Shown: piece after piece, positions 5,642 to 62,619 of the stretch
Layout: every line of letters starts with the position of its first letter
How positions within the stretch are numbered: the stretch's first letter is position 1
NCBI RefSeq assembly: GCF_047511655.1
Contig: NC_133393.1
Coordinates: forward strand, 2,299,001 to 2,363,000
DNA: 64,000 nucleotides
From: Castor canadensis
Taxonomy: Eukaryota; Chordata; Mammalia; Rodentia; Castoridae
Direction of reading: 5' to 3'
Position numbers and translations under genes: made by a program
The notes under the pieces: model-generated
Told to the model about the DNA's origin: nothing
The model's database searches: none
The model's input: only the letters and a program-made list of their open reading frames with translations

Positions 5642-5885
5642 AATGTGAGTCAATGCCCTGTATAGCTATCCTTATCTCAACCAGCAAAAACCCTTGTTCC
5701 TTCCCATTATTATTTATACTCTCTCTACAACAAAATTAGAAATAAGGGCAAAATAGTTTCTGCTGGGTATTGAGGGGGTGGGGGGGAGAGGGAGGGGGTG
5801 GGGCAGGGGGGAGAAATGACCCAAGCCTTGTATGCACATATGAATAATTTAAAAAATAAATAAATAAAAACAAAACAAAAAAAAA
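5642..5885 (+). mobile_element. Young L1 3' UTR fragment with G-rich tract
   Basis: Same sequence as 62,345-62,607: an upstream AT-rich part ending CTACAACAAAATTAG, a long G-run (about 5,770-5,812), CCAAGCCTTGTATGCACATATGAATAA and an A-rich tail. It is a 5'-truncated insertion placed directly against the older L1 piece that follows. Confidence 0.8.
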
Positions 5886-17847: not shown

Positions 17848-19335
17848 TTAATTCTTATACCCATGGCGTTCTGGAGATTCTCCCTTCTTTCTATATCTAT
17901 AGGGGTGGTTTCGCGGTTTGTACCAGTCCCCTTTGGAGTACCCTCTGTTGTGATAATGAGCTTTCTGTTCATGACTATAAAAGTATCGATGCTGGTTATA
18001 GTATTTACTGTGATCCTTATAATCATTTTCTTTAATACTGTTTTCTTCTGCAACAACAGCATCTACATCTTGACCAAAAAGGGAAGCACCATCAAATGGC
18101 AAGTGTAAGATTTTCTCCTGCGTTTTCTTAGTGAGAGATGTCAGTCGGAGCCAGGCCTGCCTTCTGTAGTCTATTGCCATGGCCATGACTCTAACTACAG
18201 AGTCCATTATGTCCCTAGTTGTACAAAGCTGCCAAAGGCCCGCATCCATACCATCAGATATTATACACCTTGCTTTTCCACGGTCAAACTCTGGGTCATG
18301 AACCAGCTCCTCCATGTCTTCCCAGAGTTTTCGCTGATACTGAGTCATATAGGCCATGTAGCTAGCAGCTCGGGCTGCAATGGAGGCAGCATGGTAGAAC
18401 CTACAACCCATGATCTCCATTTCTTTTGAGGTAGAATCTAGAGGAGATGTCGAGTTTCCTCTTTTGCCATGCTCTAATGCTTCAACAATAGGGCCCTCAG
18501 CTGGTGGATTTGGTTGGAAAGGAGAGGTATCCTTGGCCACAGAATATACCCTGTGCCCCATGAAGGAAGAAGGATGGCAATCAGCAGGGTCTTTAAAGAC
18601 TTCAGTGGTGGCAATTCTCAAAAGAGGATGCAATGGAGGAACCAAACGTTTTTTAGAGGTCACACAATCAGGTTTCCCTTCACAGGATTCAGTTTCCGGT
18701 TGTAAAGTTACCCTCTTTATAACACCTCTTTGTTCCATTCTCTTCAAAAGACCTGTGAAACTAGACTGGGTGTGGTCAGGTGACTGCCCTTTGTCTTCAG
18801 CTGATGGGAACTTGCAATCAACCTCTTCTTCAACTGTGGCCAAGTTTTCATCCTTAGAGGTTGAGATATCCCAAGGAACTGAGGTGTTCTCATTTGGCCT
18901 AGAATGATGAAATCTAAAACAGCTCCTGGACTGCAGATCACGTATCACCCGGGACATCTCAGCCACTTGTGTCTGAAGATAGAGTATGGCATCCTGTCCG
19001 TGCTGTGAAGCTGAGGCCGATGCTACAGGTAAATTCTCTTTAACCTCAGAAGATTCTTGGGGGACCAGAGGTGGAGATGAAGACAGAGTCTGATAATTTT
19101 GTGATGACTTAAGTGTCTCTGTCTCAGAGCTCTTAATATCTGAATTATTTTGATCATTTTTCTGGTTCTCCAATGAGTTCTCAACAGAGGAAGGTTGAGA
19201 AACTATTCTTTGTGGGCTGCTGGTACAACTCCCAGAGGAGGAGCTGCTGTCTCCAATGGGAAGAGGAACACTGCAGCTAGAGCACATTTCTGGGCGATGA
19301 TTCTCAGAGGATGGCACCTTAGATTCAGGCATTCT
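17848..19335 (-). CDS. ZNF451: ZNF451 alternative terminal exon: LAP2alpha-like, DIRS gag-derived
   Basis: An intact frame of 496 codons including TAA at 17,848-17,850. The acceptor is a long pyrimidine tract then ACCCAG (AG at 19,336-19,337), giving a phase-0 start RMPESK that joins exon 3 in frame. With exons 1-3 it predicts a protein of about 557 residues. Exon residues about 10-90 are Ser-rich and low complexity; about 105-130 form a likely coiled coil (ILYLQTQVAEMSRVIRDLQS). About 305-425 is the LAP2alpha-like helical domain, with the core YHAASIAARAASYMAYMTQY and ending LPFDGASLFG. The last 60 or so residues are rich in Tyr, His, Arg and Lys, as in a nucleic-acid-binding gag tail. Known: a short ZNF451 isoform and TMPO/LAP2alpha share this domain, which is derived from a DIRS-like retrotransposon gag. 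The absence of any stop argues for selection on it here. Ligase function comes from the spliced N-terminus; the role of this tail is inferred to be dimerisation or chromatin binding. Confidence 0.88.
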   Translation of the reverse strand, partial: RMPESKVPSSENHRPEMCSSCSVPLPIGDSSSSSGSCTSSPQRIVSQPSSVENSLENQKNDQNNSDIKSSETETLKSSQNYQTLSSSPPLVPQESSEVKENLPVASASASQHGQDAILYLQTQVAEMSRVIRDLQSRSCFRFHHSRPNENTSVPWDISTSKDENLATVEEEVDCKFPSAEDKGQSPDHTQSSFTGLLKRMEQRGVIKRVTLQPETESCEGKPDCVTSKKRLVPPLHPLLRIATTEVFKDPADCHPSSFMGHRVYSVAKDTSPFQPNPPAEGPIVEALEHGKRGNSTSPLDSTSKEMEIMGCRFYHAASIAARAASYMAYMTQYQRKLWEDMEELVHDPEFDRGKARCIISDGMDAGLWQLCTTRDIMDSVVRVMAMAIDYRRQAWLRLTSLTKKTQEKILHLPFDGASLFGQDVDAVVAEENSIKENDYKDHSKYYNQHRYFYSHEQKAHYHNRGYSKGDWYKPRNHPYRYRKKGESPERHGYKN

Positions 19336-20956: not shown

Positions 20957-21037
20957 ATCGCTATGAGAGGTGGTAGGCTCTTCGTCATCACTGCTGACCA
21001 GATCAATGTACTCAAGAACCGGTCTTAGTGGTCCTTC
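20957..21037 (-). CDS. ZNF451: ZNF451 coding exon 3 (PLRP linker and second SIM)
   Basis: An 81-base, 27-codon phase-0 exon with acceptor TATAG (AG at 21,038-21,039) and donor GTAAGT (20,951-20,956). It encodes [20 protein letters not shown] followed by a short Ser/Thr/His tail. In ZNF451 the PLRP turn and the IDLV core with its acidic tail form the inter-SIM linker and SIM2 of the catalytic module. The exon lies 6.7 kb downstream of exon 2 and 1.6 kb upstream of the LAP2alpha-like exon, to which it can splice in frame. A diverged paralogous exon is at 48,484-48,564. Confidence 0.93.
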
Positions 21038-21344: not shown

Positions 21345-21597
21345 AAGATATCTAAGCTCATCCTTATCTCAACCAGCAAAAATCCTTGTTCCTTCCTATT
21401 ACTGCTTATACTCTCTCTACAACAAAATTAGAAATAAGGGCAAAATAGTTTCTGCTGGGTATTGAGGGGCAGGGAGAGGGAGGGGGCGGAGTGGGTGGTA
21501 AGGGGGTGGGGGCAGGGGGGAGAAATGAACCAAGCCTTGTATGCTCATATGAATAATAAAAGAAAAATGAAGAAAAAAAAAAGATATCTAAGCTCAT
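21345..21597 (+). mobile_element. Young 5'-truncated L1 with 17-bp target-site duplications
   Basis: The L1 3' UTR (21,362-21,580) with G-rich tract and A-rich tail is flanked by perfect 17-base direct repeats AAGATATCTAAGCTCAT at 21,345-21,361 and 21,581-21,597. This is the hallmark of target-primed reverse transcription. It is inserted in ZNF451 intron 2. Confidence 0.93.
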
Positions 21598-26290: not shown

Positions 26291-27773
26291 TCAGATGCAT
26301 TTTAAAACAGAATTAAGCTATAACTAATTGCCCTTTAAGTGGTACCACTTAAACACAGAAGAAGTTTTAAATAGGTTTCTTAAGTATTGTAATTGCACTT
26401 AAAACATGCAATTAATTTTCCATTCAGAACTGTCAAACTGTTCAATCTTTCTCTGGAAACAGGGAAAAATTTATTAAGTTGAATATACAATGAATTTTCT
26501 CATTCTTTATTCTTGATCTTCTACATTTAAAATAAAGTTTAAATTAAAAACTTTAATGCAGTCTTTGCTCCCATTTCCTGTGTGGGGAACAGGAAATGTT
26601 TCTCTCTTCCCCCCTACCCCTTGCTAAAACTGAACCAAAAAAAAAGCTTAATGCAATTCTTGATTCGACAGGGTATAAAAATTTAGCTTTGAAGCCTTTT
26701 ATTTATAATGCCTGTTTCTCAAAAGGCCATAATTCATAAATAAAAGTGTTATTCCTACTTGTATCTGTATGATACATAAAAGTAAACACTGTTCACAAAT
26801 ATACCAAGATTCAGGAAGAACCAAAAACATCTGTCCTAGTAAGTTACGGAATGCTGTCATCAATTTTACTTCAGCTCATGCTTAGGATTATGCATAGCCA
26901 TGGGGTCAGTGACCAACACTGTCCCAAAAGAACATGTTTCAGTCCACAGTGAAGGGGATACAACGCATTTCTACCACTCACCCCAAATCCCCAAAGTTCA
27001 AAACGAAAAGCAAAGAGTACAATGTATACAGGCAACAAGCAAGCAAGCCAAGAAAACAATTCATGATTCCCTTCAAAACAAATCCATGAAAACACCAAAC
27101 AACAATGGACCACCACAATGGCCCAAAGTTTTGGAAGATATTGTTTTATAACAACTTTTATATAGTTGGTCAACAATACCCACAAATATTCATCAGATGG
27201 ACAATCAAAAGGAAAAAAAAATCACATAGCTTTAATACCAAATGGCAACTACCCAAACGATAACACACCTTTTCCCCAAATCAATGCTTAATAACAACGT
27301 GTGCTCAGAGGTCCGTGCGTGTGTGCATTTGTTCCACAGTGCAGATTCCCAGGATCCACCTTGAATTCCACTTGCTAACACTTTAAAACCCCTGTCCCAA
27401 AGGGAATCAACTCAGCGCGCCCCCAGCCATGCGCGATGCTTTCAGACCAGCACCAACGGTCTGCATTCACTTTCGCGGGGGTGGGCTGGGGTGGGGGTGC
27501 CGGGCCTCCAGCCCTCACTGTTGCGCTGTGCTGTCACGCGATGACCTCAGAGGTCAGGAGTCCTCCAGCTGTCTGTCCCTCTCACGACCCTCCCTCCCTG
27601 TCCTCCACCTGCCCCTGGCTCGCCCTGCGCGTCCTTTCAGGGGATCATGTCGCCCGCTTCAAACCACGGCCTCGGGCAGGACGCTGCGCGCCCCGCGCTC
27701 GGCCCTGGTCCCCGTCCGCACCCCACGCCACGCGGCACCGCGTCCGCGCTGCGGTCACCAAGGCTCTACTTAC

Positions 27774-27857
27774 GCCGACGAACTGAATGTCATCTTCGTT
27801 CTCCTCCGCCGCTGGCTCGCGCGCCGCGGGCCCGGCCGCCGGGACGGATCCTATCAT
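27774..27857 (-). CDS. ZNF451: ZNF451 coding exon 2 (first SUMO-interacting motif)
   Basis: An 84-base, 28-codon exon in phase 0 at both ends. The acceptor is a pyrimidine tract ending CTAG (AG at 27,858-27,859) and the donor is GTAAGT (27,768-27,773). It encodes an Ala/Pro-rich stretch and then an acidic segment with the core EENEDDIQFV. In ZNF451 this IQFV core is SIM1, the first of two SUMO-interacting motifs that hold the SUMO donor and back-side SUMO on UBC9. The residue before the exon 3 junction is Gly (GGC), where I recall Ser in human. Exon 2 of the right-hand copy (51,011-51,094) differs by one synonymous base at 27,843. Confidence 0.92.
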
Positions 27858-28187
27858 CTAGGGAGAGAAGCGGGACACGCGTGTCCGTGAGCGCCCGCCC
27901 CGGGCCGGATCCCAACGCGCCCGCTGAAGACAAAAGCTCCGGGCCGAGCGCGCCACGCACGCCGGCAGACCGCGGCCGAGCGGACAGGAGGCTCGGGACC
28001 GGGCCGCGTCCGCTCCGAGGGGAGGCCGGGGCGGCCCCGGCTGCGGCCGAGCGGGGCGGCGGGGGCCGGGCGGCCATGGCTGCTGCAGGGCGCCGAGGAG
28101 GCGTCGCCCGAGCAGCAGGCTCGACCCGGAGGAGGCACGGAGCCGTCCGCGGCTCGGCGCGGCCCTGAGGACGCCACGGCTACTCAC

Positions 28188-28208
28188 CTCCGGCCCCGGG
28201 TCTCCCAT
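28188..28208 (-). CDS. ZNF451: ZNF451 coding exon 1 (start codon exon)
   Basis: Read on the minus strand, ATG at 28,208 opens seven codons (MGDPGPE) and runs straight into a consensus donor GTGAGT at 28,182-28,187. The start matches the N-terminus of mammalian ZNF451 (MGDPG..), and phase 0 fits the next exon. ZNF451 is a nuclear SUMO E3 ligase and chain-elongating E4 factor. The exon sits in a CpG island with a GC-rich 5' leader above 28,209. An essentially identical exon occurs at 51,425-51,445. I am confident in the assignment because exons 2 and 3 follow in order with matching phases. Confidence 0.9.
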
Positions 28209-28318
28209 GGCTCCGACGGCCGACAGCACCGCCGCTCCTGCTGTCCCAGCCGCCGCCGCCACGACTTCTCTTCCCGCCGGCAGCGCCTCGCGCCCCGCGC
28301 CCCGCCCCTGCGTGAGCG

Positions 28319-33154: not shown

Positions 33155-33469
33155 TGATAGAACAATGTCACCATTTATAAATCGGTGGCCATTTTATCCT
33201 CAGACCTCACTTGAGAAACTTCCAAGGACAGCCCTGCCCTTAACAGAAATTCCTGTCCTCTAAGACAGCCCCACCCCTACCAGAGACTACCAAGCAAGTG
33301 CTAACTTCCTTAACCTCTCCCTTCTATAAAAGCCACGCCTGGCCTAAAACCTGTGCTGCGCCATCTTTTCCCCAGCCAGCCTGGCAGTTTGGGCCTGCCA
33401 TTAAACTTTGCTTTATGGACGTGAGACTTTTCTTGTGAGCTTTCTTTGTGAGTGGCGTTTTTCCTAACA
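33155..33469 (+). repeat. ERV 5' LTR
   Basis: A 315-base LTR beginning TGATAG and ending TAACA. A TATA box (TATAAAA) is at 33,325-33,331 and a polyadenylation signal ATTAAA at 33,400-33,405. It matches 38,983-39,288 with scattered substitutions and small indels. Confidence 0.92.
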
Positions 33470-38982: not shown

Positions 38983-39288
38983 TGATAGAACAATATCACC
39001 GTTTATAAATAGTGGCCATTTTATCCTCAGACCTCACTTGAGAAACTTCCAAGGACAGCCCTGCCCTTAACAGAAAGACCTGCGGTCTATGACAGCCCCA
39101 CCCCTACCAGAGGTACGCACTAACTTCCTTAACCTCCCCCTTCTATAAAAGCCACGCCTGGCCCAGAATCACTGCTGCGCCATCTTTTCCCCAGCCAGCC
39201 TGGCTGTTTGGGTCTGCCATTAAACTTTGCTCTATGGACATGAGACTTTTCTCATGAGCTTTCTTTGTGAGCAGCATCTTTCTTAACA
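38983..39288 (+). repeat. ERV 3' LTR
   Basis: A 306-base partner of the 5' LTR with the same ends, a TATA box at 39,144-39,150 and ATTAAA at 39,219-39,224. It is about nine bases shorter than the 5' LTR, with visible indels near its middle. Confidence 0.92.
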
Positions 39289-40500: not shown

Positions 40501-43090
40501 AATTGAAAGCAAGAATATTCAAGGCTGGAAGGCAAAGCTGATAAATTATTTGGACAGTAATAAAAATAAGAAATATGAATAGAGCATACAAAACCTTTGG
40601 GGCATGATTAAGTGATCAAACAAGATTAAAGAAAGGAGCAAAGCTATAGGCTAACAGCAAAGAAATCTATTCAGCAAAATCATGGAAGAAAAATTTTCAA
40701 ATCTTGGGAAAGATATCGATATCCAAATGTAGGAGGCATTTAGAACCTCAAATAGATGTGACCAGAAAAAGACCTCTCATGTACATCGTAGTTGAAATGC
40801 CAAAGTACAGAACAAGGAAAAACTATTAAAAGTTGCAAATGGGAAGGACCAAATCACTTATAAAGTCAAAACCCATCAGAATGACAGATTTTTTCAGCAG
40901 AAACTCTCAGAAGAACAAGAGGCCACGTAGAGAAGAGCAAGCAAGACAAAATAATGAGAGCAGAAGAAAGAATAAATTTCACAAAAAAAGTAGACAAGCA
41001 GACAGGAGTTGGGGAAGAAATGATTAATTCATTAAACTTCAAACTTCAAAGAGGAGTAAGAGAGAAGGAAAGGAACATAGGTCATTCAGAACAACTGGAA
41101 TAAAAACAAGTAACAGGAAGTAGGACATATTTTTCAGTAACATCCCTAAATATAAACGGTCTTAATTCTAAACTTTGAAGATACAGACTGGCTGACTGGA
41201 TTAAAAACAAGACTCATCTGATTGCTACCTACAAAAAACTCAACTCACTGGCAAAGACACACACACTTGAAAGGATGGAAAATCATAATCCAAGGATACA
41301 GAATCAGAAGAAGGAACAGCTATACTCATATCTGACAAAACAAGCCTCAAGCCAAAACCGTCAAGAGACAATGTGACTACATATTGACAAAGAGAACAAT
41401 TCATAAAGAAAACATAATGAATGTAAACACATACGCACCAAACATCAGGGCACCCAATTTTATAAAACAAACACTACTGGACATAAGGGAGAGATAGGCC
41501 TGAAATACAATAATAGTAGGTGACTTCAATTCAGTCTTCATAATAGAAAGATCATCCAGACAAATTTTTGTTTTAAAAAAATCGGTTAAGCCCTTCCGCA
41601 TGGCCAAAGTCCACTGCCTATACCCGCAGCTCAAAAAAAAAACATCAGTTAAGTTACATTATAAATCAACAGATATAAAACAGATCTAACAGATATCTGC
41701 AAAGTACTTCATCAAACAGCATCATGAAACACATTTTTTCATTAGCACAAGCAAACTTTTCCAAAACAGATGACATTTAAGCCATACTACATCACAACAA
41801 ATACAAAAAAATTGAAATAATTTTTATAGTATCAGATCACAACTGAATCAAACCAGAAATCAATAGTAGTACAAAGTATAAAAATTATAAAAACACAGAT
41901 ATTGAAAAATACATTTTGAATGAACAGTAATTGAAGAACTCAGCAGGGAAATTAAAATGGTCCTAGAACCAAATGAAAATGAAAACAGGATTTACAAAAA
42001 CCTGTGGAATATAGTAAAAGCAGTTCTAAGAGAAAAGTTTGTAGCAATGAGTACCAACATTTTTTTTTAAATGTCTTTTTTTTAAAGAAAGTCTCAAATA
42101 ACTTACTGATGTATCTCAAGGTCTCAGAAGAACAAGAAACCAACCACAAAGTCAGTAGAAGAAGAAATAGTAAACATCAGAGTGAAAATTAGAGACCAAA
42201 AGAACAAGACAAAGATCAACTAAACAAAGACTTGGTTCTTTGAAAAGATTAACAAAATTCAAAAACTCTTAGCCAAACTAACCAAAAGACCAAAATAAAC
42301 AAAATTAGAGGCAAAAGCAGAGATATTACAAGATACCTCTGAAATCCACAGGATTAGGGAACTTTTAAAAAAATTATATACCAATAAACTGGAAAGACTA
42401 AGAAATGGACATTTCTAATATTGATGACCTACCAAATTTAAGCAGAGGATATTAAAAATCGAAATAAACTGACAACAAGCAATGAGATTGAAACATTATC
42501 AAAAAGTATCCTAAGAAAGAAAAGCTCACGACCAGATGGATTCACAGCTGAATTCCACTAGACTTTAAAGAACACCAATGCTCCTCAAACTAGTCCATGA
42601 AATTAAAAAGAAAAGGAATGCTTTCAAACTCATCCTATGAAGCCAGTAATAACCTAATATTAACACCTGATAAGAATACACCAAAATTCTAAATGAACAT
42701 AGACACAAAAATCAGTGAAATATTTTCAAATCAAATTCAGTAAAAAAGATGACATACCATGATCAAACCAGTATCATTCCAGGAATGCAAAGATGATTCA
42801 AAATACCCAAATCAATAAATATAATAAAGCACCTAAATACAGTCAAGGATAAAAATCAAATGATCATCTCAATAGATGGAGAAAAACCTTTGATAAACTT
42901 CAACATGCTTTCATGATAAAAATCTGAATAAATTATGTGTAGAACAATCATACCTCAATGTAATACAGGTGATATAATAAATCTATAATCAATATTATAC
43001 TGAATGGGAAAATACTGAAATTATTTCTTCTAAAATCAGTCACAAGACAAAGGTGTCCAGTATCTCCCAGCAATGTCAGGAAGTGTAAAA
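40500..43090 (+). mobile_element. Old, degraded L1 (ORF1 end through RT)
   Basis: ORF1 C-terminal-like sequence (40,640-41,030) is followed by endonuclease-like ORF2 (41,100-41,930; AATGTAAACACATACGCACC is diagnostic) and RT regions. It stops near 43,060, at the spot matching the RQGCPLSPL motif of the young L1. Frames are closed throughout. It lacks the 3' half and is far more diverged than the element at 56,246. Confidence 0.75.
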
Positions 43091-45489: not shown

Positions 45490-47637
45490 TGTTTATTCTA
45501 AGTTCCATGTAGCCAATTGATTCTCATAGAAGGCTTTTGTTGACTTTTGCCGAACTCTTGTATCTGCAGCCAACCTATGGTTGCAATTTGACCAAGAGTT
45601 TACAAATGGAGTTGCATCCCAATCTGCCAGCTCTTTCCCCAATAAATTTACTGTCATCAAATCTGGTATGTGACCTATTGTTAACGTATTTCTCACTCTT
45701 GTACAAATTACGTTTATTAAATTGAAACCTCTTTTGGCTTCAGCACTACTGATTGCAATTGTGCTAACTATCTTCTTAGCTTTTTGTGTAGCTAAGAAAC
45801 ATTGTTTGGCTTTATATCATTATTTACAAACTCCCTAAATTCACTCAAGTTAATTTCATATTTTAAAATTTCACACAAATGAAGTAACTTTTCTTCACCA
45901 GATGTCCACGGTGAAGTTATTTCTTCATAAGGCCATGTAGAAGGTTCTAGCAAATCAAAATAATTAAAAAGATTTTCATCATGGTTTCTGTCAGATAAAA
46001 GGCGTAAGTTCATTTGTTGAATATTTTCTAGTAACATACTCCTACGAAGAGCATTAAATTTATCATTTTTATTAAATGGAGTATCTTTAAACTTCTCTGA
46101 ATTAACCAAATCTTCAACCTGAGATTCATACTTTCCAGTACCAATTTTTAAATTTTCCAATGCTTTTATGGTTTGCTTGATCAATTTTTCTGCTTTCTGA
46201 ATGTTAGTTGATGTTGACTGTAATGCAGTTGAAAGTACTGAGAATTCTTCAAGAATGTCAATCATCAAAGCAAGGTCTTGCAAGAAATTCACGTTAGCTA
46301 ATCTCTTTGCCAAACCAGGGTAAGAATGAAAAAAATGCATATATAGTGCGGGATATGCATGCCATGCAGCAGTAGCAGCTTGTAAACCGCATGCCGCCCA
46401 TCTTGGTCCCATTACCCAGCCAATTTTATTAATTTCAATTTCAAGTTCTTTAGCTACGCTTCCTAAAAGCTTGGTTTGATTCTTATTAGGCTGATGATAA
46501 AGACAATAAATTTTATCAAGAAACACTTTAAAATGATTAACTTGTTTTATTTCAGATATTGAATCATCAAGTGACAATTGCAATCGATGGTTTAAACAGT
46601 TCCAAATAATGACTTCAGGAAAGAGTTCTAACAATTTTATAGCTACTCCAGACTTTCTTCCCAGCATCAGATTAGCACCATCAGAACAAAATGCAATTGA
46701 ATTTGCTTTCAAATACTCATTTGTAAAGCCGAAATCATTTAAAGTAGTGAACAATGTATTAAAAATGCACTCTGTAGTTGACACCAATTCTTTTAAAGCA
46801 ACAAATAACGTTAACAGGTGCAGGAGCTGACAGAAGTGTACACAGAGGTGCTTTTCTTGGAAACTGCATATGCCTCATCAATTATGACAGACTTTGGCAT
46901 TCTCTTCTACATTACTCTTAAATATCTTCATCTTCCTTTTGCAATATGTTCTGCTATCCTTGTTGCACTGTAGCGTGTATTTAAACAATTGACCTCTCCA
47001 TTATTCTCCTGTAATTCTACTGCCCCTTCAATATCAGATAAAGGTCTATTATGTTTTACTAAACTGTAGACAGTGTTAAACACTTTTATAGTAAAATCAG
47101 TATTTTTACTATTTTGTTTATGCACTACAGTGGAAACTGAGTCATTAACTGAATCCTTTTAACAAACCTTGAATTTTACTGTGAGCTTTAGAAATGTCAC
47201 GTTCCCTAATCTTTTTCCGAAGAAAAGCTTGCCTGGTAGTTTTATTACTACCATTAGGGGTTACTAAATAGGCAATCCATTCCTTAGACACATGGACATG
47301 CTTTTCTGCTTTTGGTCCCAAATGTCGAACTGTTGAGCAATCCTTACATCCCAATTTACCTTCTTTTATTTCAAGCCATTTATACTGTTCTGTAAACATA
47401 AATGCTTGTTTTTCACTCCAACAATCTGGAAGCACAAGATTATCTATTTATTTGTTGACCACAGTGGCCTTTCTTCAATGACTGCTGGATCAACATACTT
47501 GTAACTGGGTTCCTTTGACTTAAGACAATCCAGTGATTTTTGTTCCTATTATTACTTTCTGTGCCTGTTTTCACCTTCTTCACATTTAAAAAATGCAAAC
47601 ATTCACCCTCTCGTTTTGGCATTTTAGGAAACAGAAT
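45490..47637 (-). pseudogene. KIAA1586: KIAA1586 terminal exon, hAT transposase-derived, multiply frameshifted
   Basis: The acceptor TTATTTTTCAG opens the exon at 47,637 with ILFPKMPKR, in frame with exon 3. Homology to human KIAA1586 (a domesticated hAT-like transposase fused to the ZNF451-type SIM module) runs to 45,493 in separate pieces: 47,440-47,637, 47,145-47,435, 46,928-47,125, a long 45,792-46,787 piece, and 45,493-45,780. The breaks are near 47,512-47,560, 47,447, 47,150, 46,930, 46,890, a deletion with frame change at about 46,805-46,860, and a stop plus lost codons at 45,792. The last piece carries the hAT C-terminal dimerisation signature ([12 protein letters not shown]). The long 331-codon stretch is still well conserved, so inactivation may be fairly recent. 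The full-length protein cannot be made, but a short one can: the first stop is at 47,440-47,442. Confidence 0.88.
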
Positions 47638-48483: not shown

Positions 48484-48564
48484 ATCACTGTGGTGGATGT
48501 GAGGCTCTTCATTACCACCACAAACCAAGTCAATGTACTCAAGAACTGGTCTTGACAGTCCTTC
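48484..48564 (-). CDS. KIAA1586: KIAA1586 coding exon 3 (second SIM)
   Basis: An 81-base, 27-codon phase-0 exon with acceptor TTTTTAG and donor GTAAGC. It reads [20 protein letters not shown] and then a His-rich end. The core [10 protein letters not shown] is identical to ZNF451 exon 3, but PLRP has become LSRP and the acidic run SSDDEE has become CGGNEE. The frame is open. Flanking intron sequence is recognisably homologous to that around 20,957-21,037 but strongly diverged, showing an old duplication. Confidence 0.85.
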
Positions 48565-48775: not shown

Positions 48776-49921
48776 AGAAAATCCTTCAAGTATCACAAAA
48801 TAATCAGAAATAAAGAAGGCACAAGAAAAGATTCAAAAATGTATGAATATGTAGTAATGACAAAACTCCAAAGGAGTCTAAACTTACAAAGAGGAATAAA
48901 GCCATGTGGATTCCTTTGGGAATTCCAGAGAGAATTAAAAAGACACAGATTTAATGGAACAGTATTTCTAAGCTGAAATGGTTTTCAATAATCTCAAATA
49001 CCTAAGCTCAAAACCATGGAGTTCGACAACTCTGCTTCATCCATCACATTCTTATATAGTCAAATATCAATCTTCTCTAACCTTTCTTTACATGCATGAT
49101 ACATTATTATAGACCAGGCCATAAACACCTCAGTCAAAAATCTACATTTTATTCTATAGGCGAAGGAATCAAATGTTAAGATGGGAACGACATTATTATA
49201 TAATTGCACTACACATTATATAAATTACATAATAATGTAATAATCTGTAAGTAATAGGTTTTGTCTCTGAATGTATTTTAAAGTAGAATTAAATTTTCAT
49301 TGTCTTTTTATATGGCACCATTTAAATACAACAGGAGTGTTTTTAATAAGTTCTGATACTGCAATTTCCTTGAGAGAATATAATTCACTTTTCCATCTGA
49401 AGATGTCAAGTCTTTGTTCCTCTATTTGGAACAAGGTTAAAAATAAGAGGTACTGCCAAGCTGGTTCCTCTATTTAGAAAAAGATTTAACTACAAGGGGC
49501 TTTATCAAGCTAGATATTCAAAACTTTGTATGTAAAAAATTTTCTGTATTTAAAATACAGCCAACCCTCTGTATCCCTGAGCTCCATGACGGATGAACCA
49601 AAGATGGAAAATATGCAGAAAATCAAAATTGTGCCTGTACTGAACATGTACAGACTTTTTCTTGTTACTGTTTCCTAAACAATTCAGTACAAGTATTTAC
49701 ACAACATCCACAGTATACTAGGTGTTAAAGGTAACACAGAGATGACTTAAAATACACGTGAGGGTATACACAGGTTACAAGAAATACTATTCTACAAGAG
49801 TAGAATACCTATATCTGTATATGTAGAAAACCTACATCTATAGGTTTTGGTATTTGCAAGGTCCTAGAACAATGCCACATGGATAGTGAGGGATAACTGT
49901 GCAATTTAAATTATGAGTTTT

Positions 49922-50243: not shown

Positions 50244-51010
50244 AGAGTTTAAAAGTTTTAAACTTCAGCTGACTACAAGCCAGAACTAGCTCAGAACATA
50301 TGATGTAATTATTTATTCCTCAGGGTAGTTCGTATCTTAATTTTGTAAACTCCTGTGTTGCTCAAAGGTATATAGGCCATAAAAAAAAAAGTGTCACTTT
50401 TACTGTTGTGCAAAACACCGTCAATATCATACTACCCAAAATTTCCTTTATGTCCAGTCAGGAGAAGTCAAAATTATTTTTCCTAAAGATCCATGGCACC
50501 CTCTTTCCAATTTTTTTCAATAAACAAAAAAATGTGTTTAATTTCCTGTTACACTGATCGTGCATTTGTTCCACAGTGCAGATTCCCAGGATCCACCTTG
50601 AATTCCACTTGCTAACACTTTAAAACCCCTGTCCCAAAGGGAATCAACTCAGCGCGCCCCCAGCCATGCGCGATGCTTTCAGACCAGCACCAACGGTCTG
50701 CATTCACTTTCGCGGGGGTGGGCTGGGGTGGGGGTGCCGGGCCTCCAGCCCTCACTGTTGCGCTGTGCTGTCACGCGATGACCTCAGAGGTCAGGAGTCC
50801 TCCAGCTGTCTGTCCCTCTCACGACCCTCCCTCCCTGTCCTCCACCTGCCCCTGGCTCGCCCTGCGCGTCCTTTCAGGGGATCATGTCGCCCGCTTCAAA
50901 CCACGGCCTCGGGCAGGACGCTGCGCGCCCCGCGCTCGGCCCTGGTCCCCGTCCGCACCCCACGCCACGCGGCACCGCGTCCGCGCTGCGGTCACCAAGG
51001 CTCTACTTAC

Positions 51011-51094
51011 GCCGACGAACTGAATGTCATCTTCGTTCTCCTCCGCCGCTGGCTCGCGCGCCGCGGGCCCGGCCGCCGGCACGGATCCTATCAT
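51011..51094 (-). CDS. KIAA1586: KIAA1586 coding exon 2 (first SIM)
   Basis: An 84-base phase-0 exon encoding exactly the same 28 residues as ZNF451 exon 2, including the DDIQFV SIM core. The only base difference is synonymous (GTG versus GTC for Val). Acceptor CTAG and donor GTAAGT are intact. In this gene family the motif contacts SUMO; the identity between paralogues is explained by the 889-base block it lies in. Confidence 0.87.
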
Positions 51095-51424
51095 CTAGGG
51101 AGAGAAGCGGGACACGCGTGTCCGTGAGCGCCCGCCCCGGGCCGGATCCCAACGCGCCCGCTGAAGACAAAAGCTCCGGGCCGAGCGCGCCACGCACGCC
51201 GGCAGACCGCGGCCGAGCGGACAGGAGGCTCGGGACCGGGCCGCGTCCGCTCCGAGGGGAGGCCGGGGCGGCCCCGGCTGCGGCCGAGCGGGGCGGCGGG
51301 GGCCGGGCGGCCATGGCTGCTGCAGGACGCCGAGGAGGCGTCGCCCGAGCAGCAGGCTCGACCCGGAGGAGGCACGGAGCCGTCCGCGGCTCGGCGCGGC
51401 CCTGAGGACGCCACGGCTACTCAC

Positions 51425-51445
51425 CTCCGGCCCCGGGTCTCCCAT
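51425..51445 (-). CDS. KIAA1586: KIAA1586 coding exon 1 (paralogue of ZNF451 exon 1)
   Basis: ATG at 51,445 starts MGDPGPE and ends at a GTGAGT donor (51,419-51,424), identical to ZNF451 exon 1. Human KIAA1586 shares its N-terminus with ZNF451 through an old tandem duplication, and the gene order here is the same as in human. The exon and its splice site are intact although the terminal exon of the gene is broken. Confidence 0.85.
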
Positions 51446-51605
51446 GGCCGCTGCTCCGCCGCCGCCACGAATTCTTTTCCCGTCGTCGGGCAACCCCCTT
51501 ACTCGGGCGAAGAGAGCTGTAAGACAGCTAGGAATAAAGCGCGTCCCTTCCGGCTGCTCCCGGAAGGAGCCTCCGCGCTCACTCCGCCACGCCCCTCAGC
51601 CGCGG

Positions 51606-51630
51606 TGCACGCTGGGAACTGTAGTTCCGG
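51606..51630 (-). promoter_or_regulatory. ZNF143/STAF-type binding site in the KIAA1586 promoter
   Basis: On the minus strand the site reads AACTACAGTTCCCAGCGTGC, close to the extended ZNF143/THAP11 motif (ACTACAATTCCCAGCATGC), with CCGGAA beside it as a possible ETS site. It lies about 175 bases upstream of the start codon, a typical position for housekeeping promoters. Confidence 0.65.
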
Positions 51631-51762
51631 AAGGCTAGACCTTGTGCGCGTGCGTGAAGCGCTGAGCTGTCTGTGTTTTGTTCTGTTGGTTTGTTTTTGT
51701 TTTGTTTTGCAGATTTTCTTGGTTGTACATCTGCAAACCCATCTGTTAGATTTTTTGTGTAT

Positions 51763-56213: not shown

Positions 56214-57259
56214 AAAAGAAAAAGGAGGGTAAAAAGCCAGACATGGGAGGGAGGATCCAAGATGGAGACTAGAGGGAGGAAGCAGATAGCATGAGCTCCA
56301 TAAATCAAAAATCTTGCTGAGATGCTGGAGCCACACTTGGCACAAAAAAACCACCAAGAAGAAGCACAACCCTGAGACCCAAACCCCCAGCCCACACAAA
56401 GATTCTCCACACCACGTTGCGCTGAGAAACCACGAGGACTCCTGCACTGCCAACACCAGCTCCAAACCTGCCTGGGAGACGCAGGCCAACAGGTGAGCAA
56501 ATAAGCGGCACGAGGTACTCTCACAGCCACCCCGGGGATAAACCAGCATAGCCCCCTAGACAGACTGACCCCCGCCCTGCAAAAAGGGAAAACAACCTGA
56601 ATAATAAATAAGCAACTGAAAAGGACACCCAGCAGTGGAGGCAGGGTGCTCTGAGTGCACTGGGGAAGGGGGGAGGGCAAGGAGCTGTCTCCATGGGAGC
56701 ATTTAGTAAACAAAGCCTGCAACAGTAGACTGCTGGCAGTAGATGGGAGATGAGCTGCTGCCTGAAATAGGGCAGATAGCGATTCACAAAAATGCCTCCT
56801 GACCCAACCACCTGGCGAGACTACAACAGAGCTACTGCTTAAATACCAACACCAGGACAGGATGCTGAAGGAGCAACACCAGAACCACTAAGACTGAAAT
56901 TTCATTGTTCCTGAACCTGGATTTTTTTTCTCTTTTTCTTTTTTCTCTTTCTCTCTAAATGCTTGTTTAGTTCACTGTTGGTTAGTACCATCTCTCCCTG
57001 TTGATTTCTTTTTTTTTTCCTGTTCTTTCTTTTCTTTCTTTTACTTCTTACACTTTCATTCTAGATCTATTTACTTTAATTATTGTAAGCTAGCTAATAC
57101 CAAATTACACACAGAACAGGGACAGTAACATCACCAAGTGGAATGATGGGAAGATGGAAAAGGAATGGAAACCATTCGCCCCACAAAAATAAATTAGTAC
57201 AGGCACTGGAGGGAAATGAAGAAAACCGAGAACCAGATTCAGACTCCAACTAAGCAAAG

Positions 57260-58419: not shown

Positions 58420-61400
58420 ACTGAATGTTAATGGACTTAATCCCCCCATCAAAAGACACTGTTTGACAAACCGGATTAAAAAGGAAGATCCAACAATTTG
58501 TTTCTTACAGGAGACCCATCACATTGACAGAAACAAGCACTGGCTTAGGGTGAAAGTCTGGAAGAAGATTTACCAAGCCAATGGTCCCCCAAAACAGGCA
58601 GGAGTAGCAATACTTATCTCAAACAAAGTAGACTTCAAACCTACATTGATCAAATGAGATAAAGAAGGACATTCCATACTAATAAAAGAGGAAATTCATG
58701 AAAAGGAAAAACAATTATCAACCTATATGCACCCAACGTCAATGCACCCAATTTCATCAAACATACTCTGAGGGACCTACAAACATATATAAACTCCAAC
58801 ACAATGGTAGTGGGAGACTTTAATACCCCCCTATCACCAGTAGATAGGTCATCCAAACAAAAAAAATCAATAAAGAAATCCTAGACCTAAATCACACCAC
58901 ACATCAAATGGACCTAGCCAATGTCTACAGAACATTTCATCCAACTCCTGCACAATATACATTCTTCTCAGCAGCCCACGGAACCTTCTCCAAAATTGAT
59001 CATATCTTAGGGTACAAAGCAAGCCTCAGCAAATATAAGAAAACAGAAATAATCCCACACATTCTATCTGATCACAATGCATTAAAACTAGAACTCAACA
59101 ACAAAAACAACAGTAGAAAACATGCAAACAGTTGGAAGCTAAAGTTTCCTGGAAGTTAATGAAAATGAAAACACGACCTACCAGAACCTATGGGACACAG
59201 CAAAGGCAGTCCTGAGAGGAAAGTTTATAGCCATGAGTGCATATATTAAAAGGACAGAAAGATCTCAAATCAATGACTTAATGATACATCTCAAACTCCT
59301 AGAAAAACAAGAACAAGCAAATCCCAAAACAAATAGGAGAGAAATAATAAAAATAAGAGCTGAAATCAATGAAATAGAAACCAAAAAAAAACCATACAAA
59401 GAATTAATGAAACAAAAAGTAGGTTCTTTGAAAAAATAAGATTGACAAACCATGGCAAACCTGACTAAAATGAGGAGAGAAAAAACCCAAATCAGTAAAA
59501 TCAGAAATGTAAAAACAGAGACAGCAACAAACACCACAGAAATCCAGGAAATCATCAGAGACTACTTTGAGAACCTATATTCAAATACATTTGAAAATCT
59601 TGAAGAAATGGACAGATTTCTAGATACTATGACCATCCAAATTGAACCAAGAGGAAATTAATCACCTGAATAGATCTATAACACAAAATGAAATTGAAGC
59701 AGCAATCAAGAGTCTCCCAAAAAAGAAAAGTCCAGGACCTGATGGATTCTCTGCTGAATTCTATCAGATCTTTAAAGAAGAACTGATACCAACCCTCCTT
59801 AAACTGTTCCACGAAATAGAAAGGGAAGGAACACTGCCTAACTCATCCTATGAAGCCAGTATTATACTCATCCCAAAAAGGAGAACTATAAACCAATCTC
59901 CTTAATGAACATCGATGCAACAATCCTAAATAAAATAATAGCAAATTCAACAATACGTCAGAAAAGTCATCCACCATGACCAAGTGGGCTTCATTCCAGG
60001 GATGCAGGGGTAGTTCAACATATGTAAATATATAAATGTAATACAGCACGTTAATAGAAGCAAAGACAAAAACCACTTGATTATCTCAATAGATGCAGAA
60101 AAAGCCTTTGACAAGATCCAACACCACTTCATGATAAAAGCGCTAAGAAAACTAAGAATAGAAGGAAAGTACCTCAACATTGTAAAGGCTATGTATGACA
60201 AACCTACAGTCAATATCATAGTTAATGGTGAAAAACTTAAACCACTTCTCCTAAAATAAGGAATGAGACAAGGGTGCCCACTATCCCCACTTCTATTCAA
60301 CATAGTACTGGAATTCCTAGCCAGAGCAATTAGGCAAGAAGAAGAAATAAAAAGAATACAAATAGGTAAAGAAACTGTTAAACTATCCCTATTTGCAGAT
60401 GATATGATCCTATACCTTAAAGACCAAAAAACTCTACCCAAAAACTCCTAGATACCATCAATAGCTATAGTAAGGTGGCAGGATACAAAGTGAACTTACA
60501 AAAGTCATTAGCTTTTCTATACACCAATAACGAACAAACTGAGAAAGAATATATGAAAACAATTCCATTTACAATAGCCTCAAAAAAAATCAAGTACCTA
60601 GGAGTAAATTTAACAAAGGATGTGAAAGAACTCTACAAGGGGAACTACAAACCCCTGAAGAAATAGATCGAGGAAGACTATAGAAGGTGGAGAGATCTCC
60701 CGTGCTCATGGATTGGTAGAATCAACATAGTAAAAATGGCTATACTACCAAAAGCAATCTACATGTTTAATGCAATTCCCATCAAAATCCCGATGACATT
60801 CATCACAGAGATTGAAAAATCTACCCTAAAATTCATTTGGAAACACAAGAGACCATGAATAGCCAAGGCAATACTCAGCAAAAAGAACAATGCAGGAGGT
60901 ATCACAATACCTGACTTCAAACTACATTACAAAGCAGTAGCAATAAAAACAGCATGGTACTGGCACAAAAACAGACATGAAAACCAGTGGAACAGAAAAG
61001 AGAACCTGGATATGAATCCACACAGCTATGCCCACCTTATTTTTGACAAAGGTGCTAAACATATACAATGGAGAAAAGACAACCTCTTCAACAAATGTTG
61101 TTGGGAAAAGTGGTTATCTGTCTGCAAAATACTAAAGCCAGACCCATGTTTATCACCCTGTACTAGTATCAACTCAAAATGGATCAAGGACCTTACTATC
61201 AGACCCCAAACTCTAAAGTTGGTAGAGGAACGAGCAGGAAACACTCTGGAAGTAATAGGTATAGGCAAGGACTTCCTCAATGGAACCCCAGCAGCTCAGC
61301 AACTAAGAGAAAGTATGGACAAATGGTTCTTCATAAAACTAAAAAGCTTCTGCACAACAAAAGAAATGGTCTCTGAACTGAAGAGAACACCCACAGAGTG

Positions 61401-62115: not shown

Positions 62116-62477
62116 TCAAGGGCAAACACAACAAAGGGACTGGACTTTGATCACATGATAAAGTGAGGTATGAGGATAGGTAAAACATCTAAAAAACTAG
62201 ACAGCATTTGTTGCCCTCAAAGCAGAGAAACTAAAGCAGATACTTTAAATCAACTGAGGCCAATAGGAGAAGGGGACCAGGAACTAGAGAAAAGGTGAGA
62301 TCAAAAAGAATTAACCTAGAAGGTAACACCCACGCACAGGAAATCAATGTGAGTCAATGCCCTATATAGCTATCCTTATCTCAACCAGCAAAAACCCTTG
62401 TTCCTTCCTATTATTGCTTATACTCTCTCTACAACAAAATTAGAGATAAGGGCAAAATAGTTTCTGCTGGGTATTGA

Positions 62478-62540
62478 GGGGGTGGGGGGAGAGGGAGGGG
62501 GCGGAGTGGGTGGTAAGGGAGGGGGTGGGGGCAGGGGGGA
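62478..62540 (+). repeat. G-rich tract of the L1 3' UTR
   Basis: Runs of three to six or more G separated by short spacers, enough for several G-quadruplex arrangements. The tract also occurs, with different lengths, at 5,770-5,812 and 21,464-21,521. Confidence 0.8.
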
Positions 62541-62619
62541 GAAATGACCCAAGCCTTGTATGCACATATGAATAATAAAAAATAAAACAATAAAATAAAA
62601 TAAAAAAAGACTCCAGCAG

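Follow-up and report, generated by a model that had tools for sequence, protein, structure and literature searches.

An 889-bp block shared by ZNF451 and a KIAA1586 pseudogene in a rodent genome: probable recent gene conversion between old tandem paralogues

Two neighbouring genes on the minus strand of the window (the whole 64-kb stretch of DNA analysed here) share a block of 889 bp that is nearly identical in both, and are strongly diverged on either side of it. One gene is ZNF451 and the other is the remnant of its known neighbour, KIAA1586. The most likely explanation is that a recent recombination event copied the block between them. We assign a probability of about 0.9 to the whole history proposed below, in which an old duplication gave rise to a fusion gene, conversion without crossover occurred repeatedly, and the latest exchange took place in this rodent.

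Results

The shared block

In a pairwise alignment, copy A (27,323-28,211, in ZNF451) and copy B (50,560-51,448, in the KIAA1586 pseudogene) match without gaps and with 2 mismatches in 889 positions, and the edges are exact. A preliminary description of this DNA had claimed just such a match, and the alignment confirms it and locates the two differences: 27,843 G/51,080 C is a silent change in exon 2, and 28,090 G/51,327 A lies in intron 1. The tract comprises 3 bp of the 5'UTR, the coding part of exon 1 (28,208-28,188), the whole of intron 1 (330 bp), exon 2 with SIM1 (27,857-27,774), and the first 451 bp of intron 2. Thus, the "two introns' worth" of non-coding DNA described earlier is accurate for intron 1, while intron 2 is included in part. 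Intron sequence makes up 781 of the 889 bp and contains one of the changes. The chance of finding two or fewer mismatches over this length is ∼3e-46 if sites differ at 12%, and ∼5e-162 at 35%.

The block has a G+C content of 71% and contains 106 CpG dinucleotides. A genome-wide search (2.8 Gb, 181 contigs), in which the best candidates only were scored, found two matches, and these are copies A and B. The window is part of a 159-Mb contig and contains no N; there are two short N runs in the neighbouring 70 kb outside the window, which could be gaps or withheld stretches.

Several other repeats are present in the window. Positions 41,961-43,067 and 59,147-60,288 form a 1.1-kb pair with 68.5% identity, which may derive from old LINE elements. 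By eye, the open stretches at 57,254 and 60,859 resemble LINEs, but a Pfam scan gave no match. There is also a 315-bp direct repeat (33,155-33,469 and 38,983-39,288; 88.6% identical), and a 210-260-bp element is found in three copies (5,642-5,883, 21,355-21,582 and 62,346-62,608; 85-91% identical).

The two genes

Copy A belongs to ZNF451, which is unbroken in the exon pieces found. The coding part of exon 1 (28,188-28,208) encodes MGDPGPE, has a human counterpart in 5d2m, and is followed by a GT donor. Exon 2 (27,774-27,857) encodes SIM1 (DDIQFV) between an AG acceptor and a GTAAGT donor, and exon 3 (20,957-21,037) encodes SIM2, so that the tandem SIMs are both present. The LAP2alpha exon of the ZNF451-3 isoform (17,851-19,335) is open, with a match to Pfam PF11560 (4.8e-8) and up to 92% identity to ZNF451-3 proteins; this exon has been described as eutherian (PMC4495291). 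The zinc-finger exons are likewise open. Eight more pieces of the gene were read at lower coordinates beyond the window; seven are stop-free, and one has a stop that falls past its GT donor. For residues 110-141 and 971-1096 of P0213 (ZNF451), there is no match with P0213 at E 1e-4, apart from one weak C-terminal match with the Perognathus protein. In a tree of the longer ZNF451 pieces, the ZNF451 of this genome groups with Perognathus, the only castorimorph in the tree (95/88), inside the mouse-related rodents, which agrees with the castorimorph origin that the preliminary description assumed.

Copy B is the KIAA1586 pseudogene. The coding part of exon 1 (51,425-51,445) is identical to that of copy A, exon 2 with SIM1 (51,011-51,094) has the one silent difference, and exon 3 (48,484-48,564), which is of the KIAA1586 type, is diverged but retains its splice sites. 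The large transposase-like exon (45,496-47,637, from tblastn of the squirrel homologue P0037) is split into six pieces that do not stay in one frame, and two of these contain stops; it is for this reason that we regard the gene as a pseudogene in spite of its SIM exons. The dying gene that was earlier suspected of sharing its SIM1 exon with a living one can therefore be named as KIAA1586, and the living one as ZNF451. In the squirrel models P0037 and P0041, by comparison, KIAA1586 is full length. The term "transposase-like" is putative: distant relatives of KIAA1586 carry transposase-type Pfam labels in precomputed annotation (e.g., PF05699 and PF14291), and a Pfam scan gave no match for P0037, P0047 or the longest piece in the window. 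On the KIAA1586 side, the first 250 bp of the promoter (51,449-51,698) remain rich in CpG (CpG o/e 1.11); judging from this composition, the promoter may have stayed active and could supply transcripts to ZNF451 exon 3.

Edges and flanking DNA

The block ends abruptly inside homologous DNA, as had been proposed. The first base beyond the tract is a mismatch on both sides, and outside the tract the ungapped identity is 7-22 of 50 positions per 50-bp window. Collinear, diverged homology is found beyond each edge. Within intron 2, 26,295-26,469 aligns with 49,271-49,442 (score 43.5, versus a null maximum of 18.5 in 100 resampled sequences), and the homology of copy A detected nearest to the edge, between 26,651-26,867 and 50,303-50,514, has a score of 25.5 (versus a maximum of 22; none of 300 resampled sequences was as high). 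Exon 3 with its flanks gives a score of 64, versus 19 for the best resampled sequence. Beyond the other edge, a core of the 5'UTR (28,250-28,279 versus 51,456-51,485) scores 24, versus 19.5 for the best resampled sequence. The identities are 74% of aligned bases for both intron segments, 66% beside exon 3 and 27/30 for the 5'UTR core, and all are overstated because they come from best local alignments. These alignments uphold the earlier view that the duplication is old, with exon 3, intron 2 and promoter homologous but heavily diverged.

Both edges of the tract are abutted by a length difference, as seen from offsets that differ between the two copies. Past the intron edge, detected homology begins at 45 bp in B and at 455 bp in A, and on the 5' side the shared 5'UTR core is 38 bp from the edge in A and 7 bp from it in B, a difference of 31 bp. 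Homology is undetectable between 27,322-26,900 of A and 50,559-50,250 of B (score 11; 269 of 300 resampled sequences were as high). A recombination tract could end at length heterologies in this way.

The presence of diverged homologous DNA on both sides indicates that the block is a replacement and not a new duplication. Two matching copies of exon 2 are found within the window, one in each gene, and so the block must have taken the place of its counterpart; in the window and in the genome search alike, each locus has a single copy, with none added. These features, a near-identical tract enclosed by older and diverged homology and one exon 2 per gene, together with the protein trees described below, support the earlier proposal of gene conversion between old tandem paralogues 23 kb apart.

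Divergence within the tract is 0.0022 (95% interval 0.0003-0.008), compared with 0.32 in the flanking intron. The tract would thus have ∼0.7% of the age of its flanks. The flanks are taken to have separated ∼100 million years ago, in which case the tract would be under ∼2.5 million years old. The last fraction of the identity could be a consensus effect.

Comparison with other placental mammals

Protein trees were made from 26 ZNF451 and 15 KIAA1586 sequences chosen for spread, plus the two window copies (43 rows), and were drawn from three sources, of which 120 of 241, 120 of 126, and 33 proteins were listed. Among the sequences left out are P0042, P0048, P0049, P0050, KIAA1586 models that lack the SIM exons or exon 3 (part of P0052-P0063), and the bulk of the ZNF451 models that are nearly identical to one another. 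For exons 1-2 (35 columns, with five sets of identical rows left free and bootstraps that are not fully settled), a single KIAA1586 clade is rejected (delta lnL 48.7; p-AU 9e-6) under a simple model with the mixture off, for which 5 of 71 true clades were rejected in the tool's own trials, and the gene labels cluster no more than shuffled labels do. For exon 3, the same 43 rows and the same simple model place KIAA1586 in one clade (97/97), based on the first 21 residues, with two bat rows that are one residue short and shifted at the end, and with a long dog branch. The preliminary description had called for separate trees of tract and flanks; at the protein level, and with these short alignments, the result is grouping by species in exons 1-2 and by gene in exon 3, with Pongo as a case without sharing.

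The same pattern is seen when the two genes are compared within species, using predicted proteins over 28-35 residues. In residues 8-35, the mean difference is 0.33 within species and 2.91 between species, and none of 20,000 permutations gave a value as low (12 species, paired by name), although kinship between species makes the permutation counts less independent than they look. The KIAA1586 models of Aotus, Cebus and Dasypus are without exon 3 or without the usual start. When each lineage is represented by one species and the window is added, a set in which only two pairs have differing proteins, the values are 0.25 and 4.9, and the observed pairing is the only one of 40,320 that is as low; with the window left out, the count is 1 of 5,040 pairings. 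The corresponding permutation for exon 3 is uninformative, as all of the ZNF451 rows used are identical.

Unusual residues, defined against a "usual" sequence chosen by the analyst, are common to both genes in nine of the 12 same-species pairs: three each in Propithecus, Phocoena, Pteropus and Rhinopithecus, two each in Rousettus and Canis, and one each in Ictidomys, Cebus and Dasypus. No such residues were found in the Pongo, Cercocebus and Aotus pairs. In seven of the 12 pairs the proteins are identical, in residues 8-35 or throughout (counting Dasypus), and here the ZNF451 models could have borrowed exons of the upstream gene. The other five pairs have differing proteins, which makes it certain that there are two separate exons; tested apart, they give a permutation p of 0.016, and common residues are found in four of them (Propithecus, Phocoena, Pteropus and Rousettus; none in Pongo). 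Borrowing of exons by the gene models was set aside as a general cause, since it cannot explain these pairs. The Rhinopithecus roxellana pair is suspect, and may be one exon seen twice, because its two proteins are identical, while ZNF451 of the congener R. bieti (P0200) shows the usual sequence.

In armadillo, P0050 (KIAA1586) and P0244 (ZNF451) have a common alternative first stretch, MAARAPP..., and a similar reading can be seen by eye in intron 1 of the window block. Either homogenisation extends to intron 1 in armadillo as well, or the two genes use a single exon. We do not count this start, which P0245 also has, as evidence, as it may be one exon seen twice.

Discussion

Alternative explanations

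Three other explanations for the block were weighed against conversion. The one that deserves most attention, although we consider it unlikely, is an assembly artefact: either a single copy of the block ended up in both genes, or two similar copies were merged into one consensus sequence. The G+C content and the 106 CpG make this a hard region, and there are the two N runs in the neighbouring 70 kb. However, the copies differ at two sites in an N-free window, within a 159-Mb contig of a 181-contig genome, and for neither gene were exons 1-2 found outside its block, where the splice sites match. Moreover, the same block is known as a human segmental duplication (PMC5463148), and a collapse could sharpen the identity but would need very similar copies to begin with.

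It is very improbable that, instead of conversion, the block was recently inserted into the second gene or duplicated there in tandem. Such an event would fit with the stretch 27,322-26,900 of copy A, next to the intron edge, for which nothing similar could be detected in the 310 bp of B that adjoin the block, but the flanks are homologous and collinear on both sides, and there is no second exon 2 or older exon 1-2 remnant found beside either block; a simple insertion was rejected on these two observations. A one-time event in this rodent would also not produce the species-wise grouping seen in other mammals. Purifying selection alone, acting to keep exons 1-2 alike in both genes, can scarcely be the answer. 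SIM1 is part of a catalytic region (PMC8952880), and among the listed proteins there is almost no variation in the last residues of exon 2, ENEDDIQFV. Selection of this kind is rejected because the introns, 781 of the 889 bp, are near-identical with one change; in addition, in other species ZNF451 orthologues differ from each other in exon 2 (2.7 differences on average), while the paralogues within a species are almost alike there (0.33), and KIAA1586 is a pseudogene here.

Proposed history

Our preferred reading remains gene conversion, with the following course. The 5' end of ZNF451 (exons 1-3) would have been duplicated in an early placental mammal and joined to a transposase-like gene, forming KIAA1586, which lies immediately upstream of ZNF451 and is oriented the same way. 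Homologous recombination, presumably without crossover, would then have repeatedly copied the segment from the start codon through exon 1, intron 1 and exon 2 into early intron 2 between the genes, probably throughout placental history. The island would thereby be kept above the identity needed for recombination while the surrounding DNA drifts. The latest exchange would have occurred in this rodent, leaving two differences in 889 bp and ending at length differences on both sides. ZNF451 is the probable donor and KIAA1586 the acceptor, because the intact gene is the likelier template.

The distribution of KIAA1586 bears on the first of these steps. Among the listed proteins, SIM-bearing models are found in primates, colugo, squirrels, carnivores, bats, cetaceans, sloth and armadillo. 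Three marsupial relatives (P0068, P0069 and P0080) begin at the transposase-like part and lack SIMs, another (P0076) carries a KRAB box, and a lizard relative (P0065) begins otherwise. Since these relatives start differently, the sequences hint that the SIM exons may have been captured in early placentals, a suggestion that is weakened by placental isoforms also lacking these exons (e.g., P0060). In muroid rodents, ZNF451 was found and no named KIAA1586 was among the matches listed, which is no proof of loss.

Homogenisation of an island around the first exons in several placental lineages is supported at the protein level, and also by the human duplication described in PMC5463148. We think it reasonably probable, with clearly less confidence than for the conversion seen here, that this ∼1-kb island around the first two exons of both genes has kept itself going by recurrent conversion since the early placentals, with paralogue-specific DNA right beside it, and has outlasted the death of KIAA1586. 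On this reading, homogenisation continues after that death, so that recombination would be driving it, and not selection on KIAA1586. If so, the island makes KIAA1586 look younger than its real age, and crossover between its direct repeats would be expected to delete the gene, a possible reason why some lineages lack it. This extended reading would imply homogenisation of a ∼1-2-kb block over much of placental history, with a sharp contrast between adjacent exons that encode a single short region of the protein, and would bear on how small an island of homology can sustain conversion. It would also contradict the description of KIAA1586 as primate-specific (PMC8952880), and dating of the gene pair by its N-terminus would give the wrong age.

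Relation to known systems

Gene conversion is already known as a mechanism, and the ZNF451/KIAA1586 case appears to be new within the literature searched on these genes. The ZNF451 family of tandem-SIM SUMO E3 ligases has been described as neighbouring genes with a shared N-terminus, as is found here, and ZNF451-3 with LAP2alpha is likewise present in this window (PMC8952880, PMC10095316). Whereas KIAA1586 is called primate-specific in PMC8952880, here SIM-bearing models occur in squirrels, carnivores, bats, whales and xenarthrans, and a broken copy is present in this rodent.

In human, KIAA1586 and ZNF451 contain a direct segmental duplication of ∼1.78 kb (chr6:56911304-56913080 and 56954801-56956578), which spans the 5'UTR and the first two coding exons of both genes (PMC5463148). 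The block is thus in the same two genes, in the same direction, and over the same first two coding exons as here. The human block includes the 5'UTR and its copies are 43.5 kb apart, whereas the block in this rodent is 889 bp long and runs from the start codon, with copies 23 kb apart and a broken KIAA1586. The same block was reported at a rearrangement in a human patient; as the source of this patient's fusion duplication, the authors suggest that the two copies recombined, and in their view the segmental duplication also mediates the loss of KIAA1586 (PMC5463148). In an autism study, the KIAA1586 events listed measure 36,354, 36,902, 157,321, 36,901 and 67,160 bp (PMC2695001). The human duplication is discussed as a substrate for crossover rearrangement, and the term "gene conversion" is absent from the main text of PMC5463148, while our reading of the rodent block is one of conversion.

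The closest general parallel is interlocus gene conversion in human segmental duplications (PMC3790853; neither ZNF451 nor KIAA1586 is named in its main text), where near-identical tracts between paralogues and concerted evolution are seen as they are here. That study dropped sequences under 88% identity, conversion there being taken as negligible, while here the tract lies between flanks of ∼66-74% identity, figures that are themselves overstated. Average tracts in that study are 167 versus 348 bp, compared with 889 bp for the tract in this rodent.
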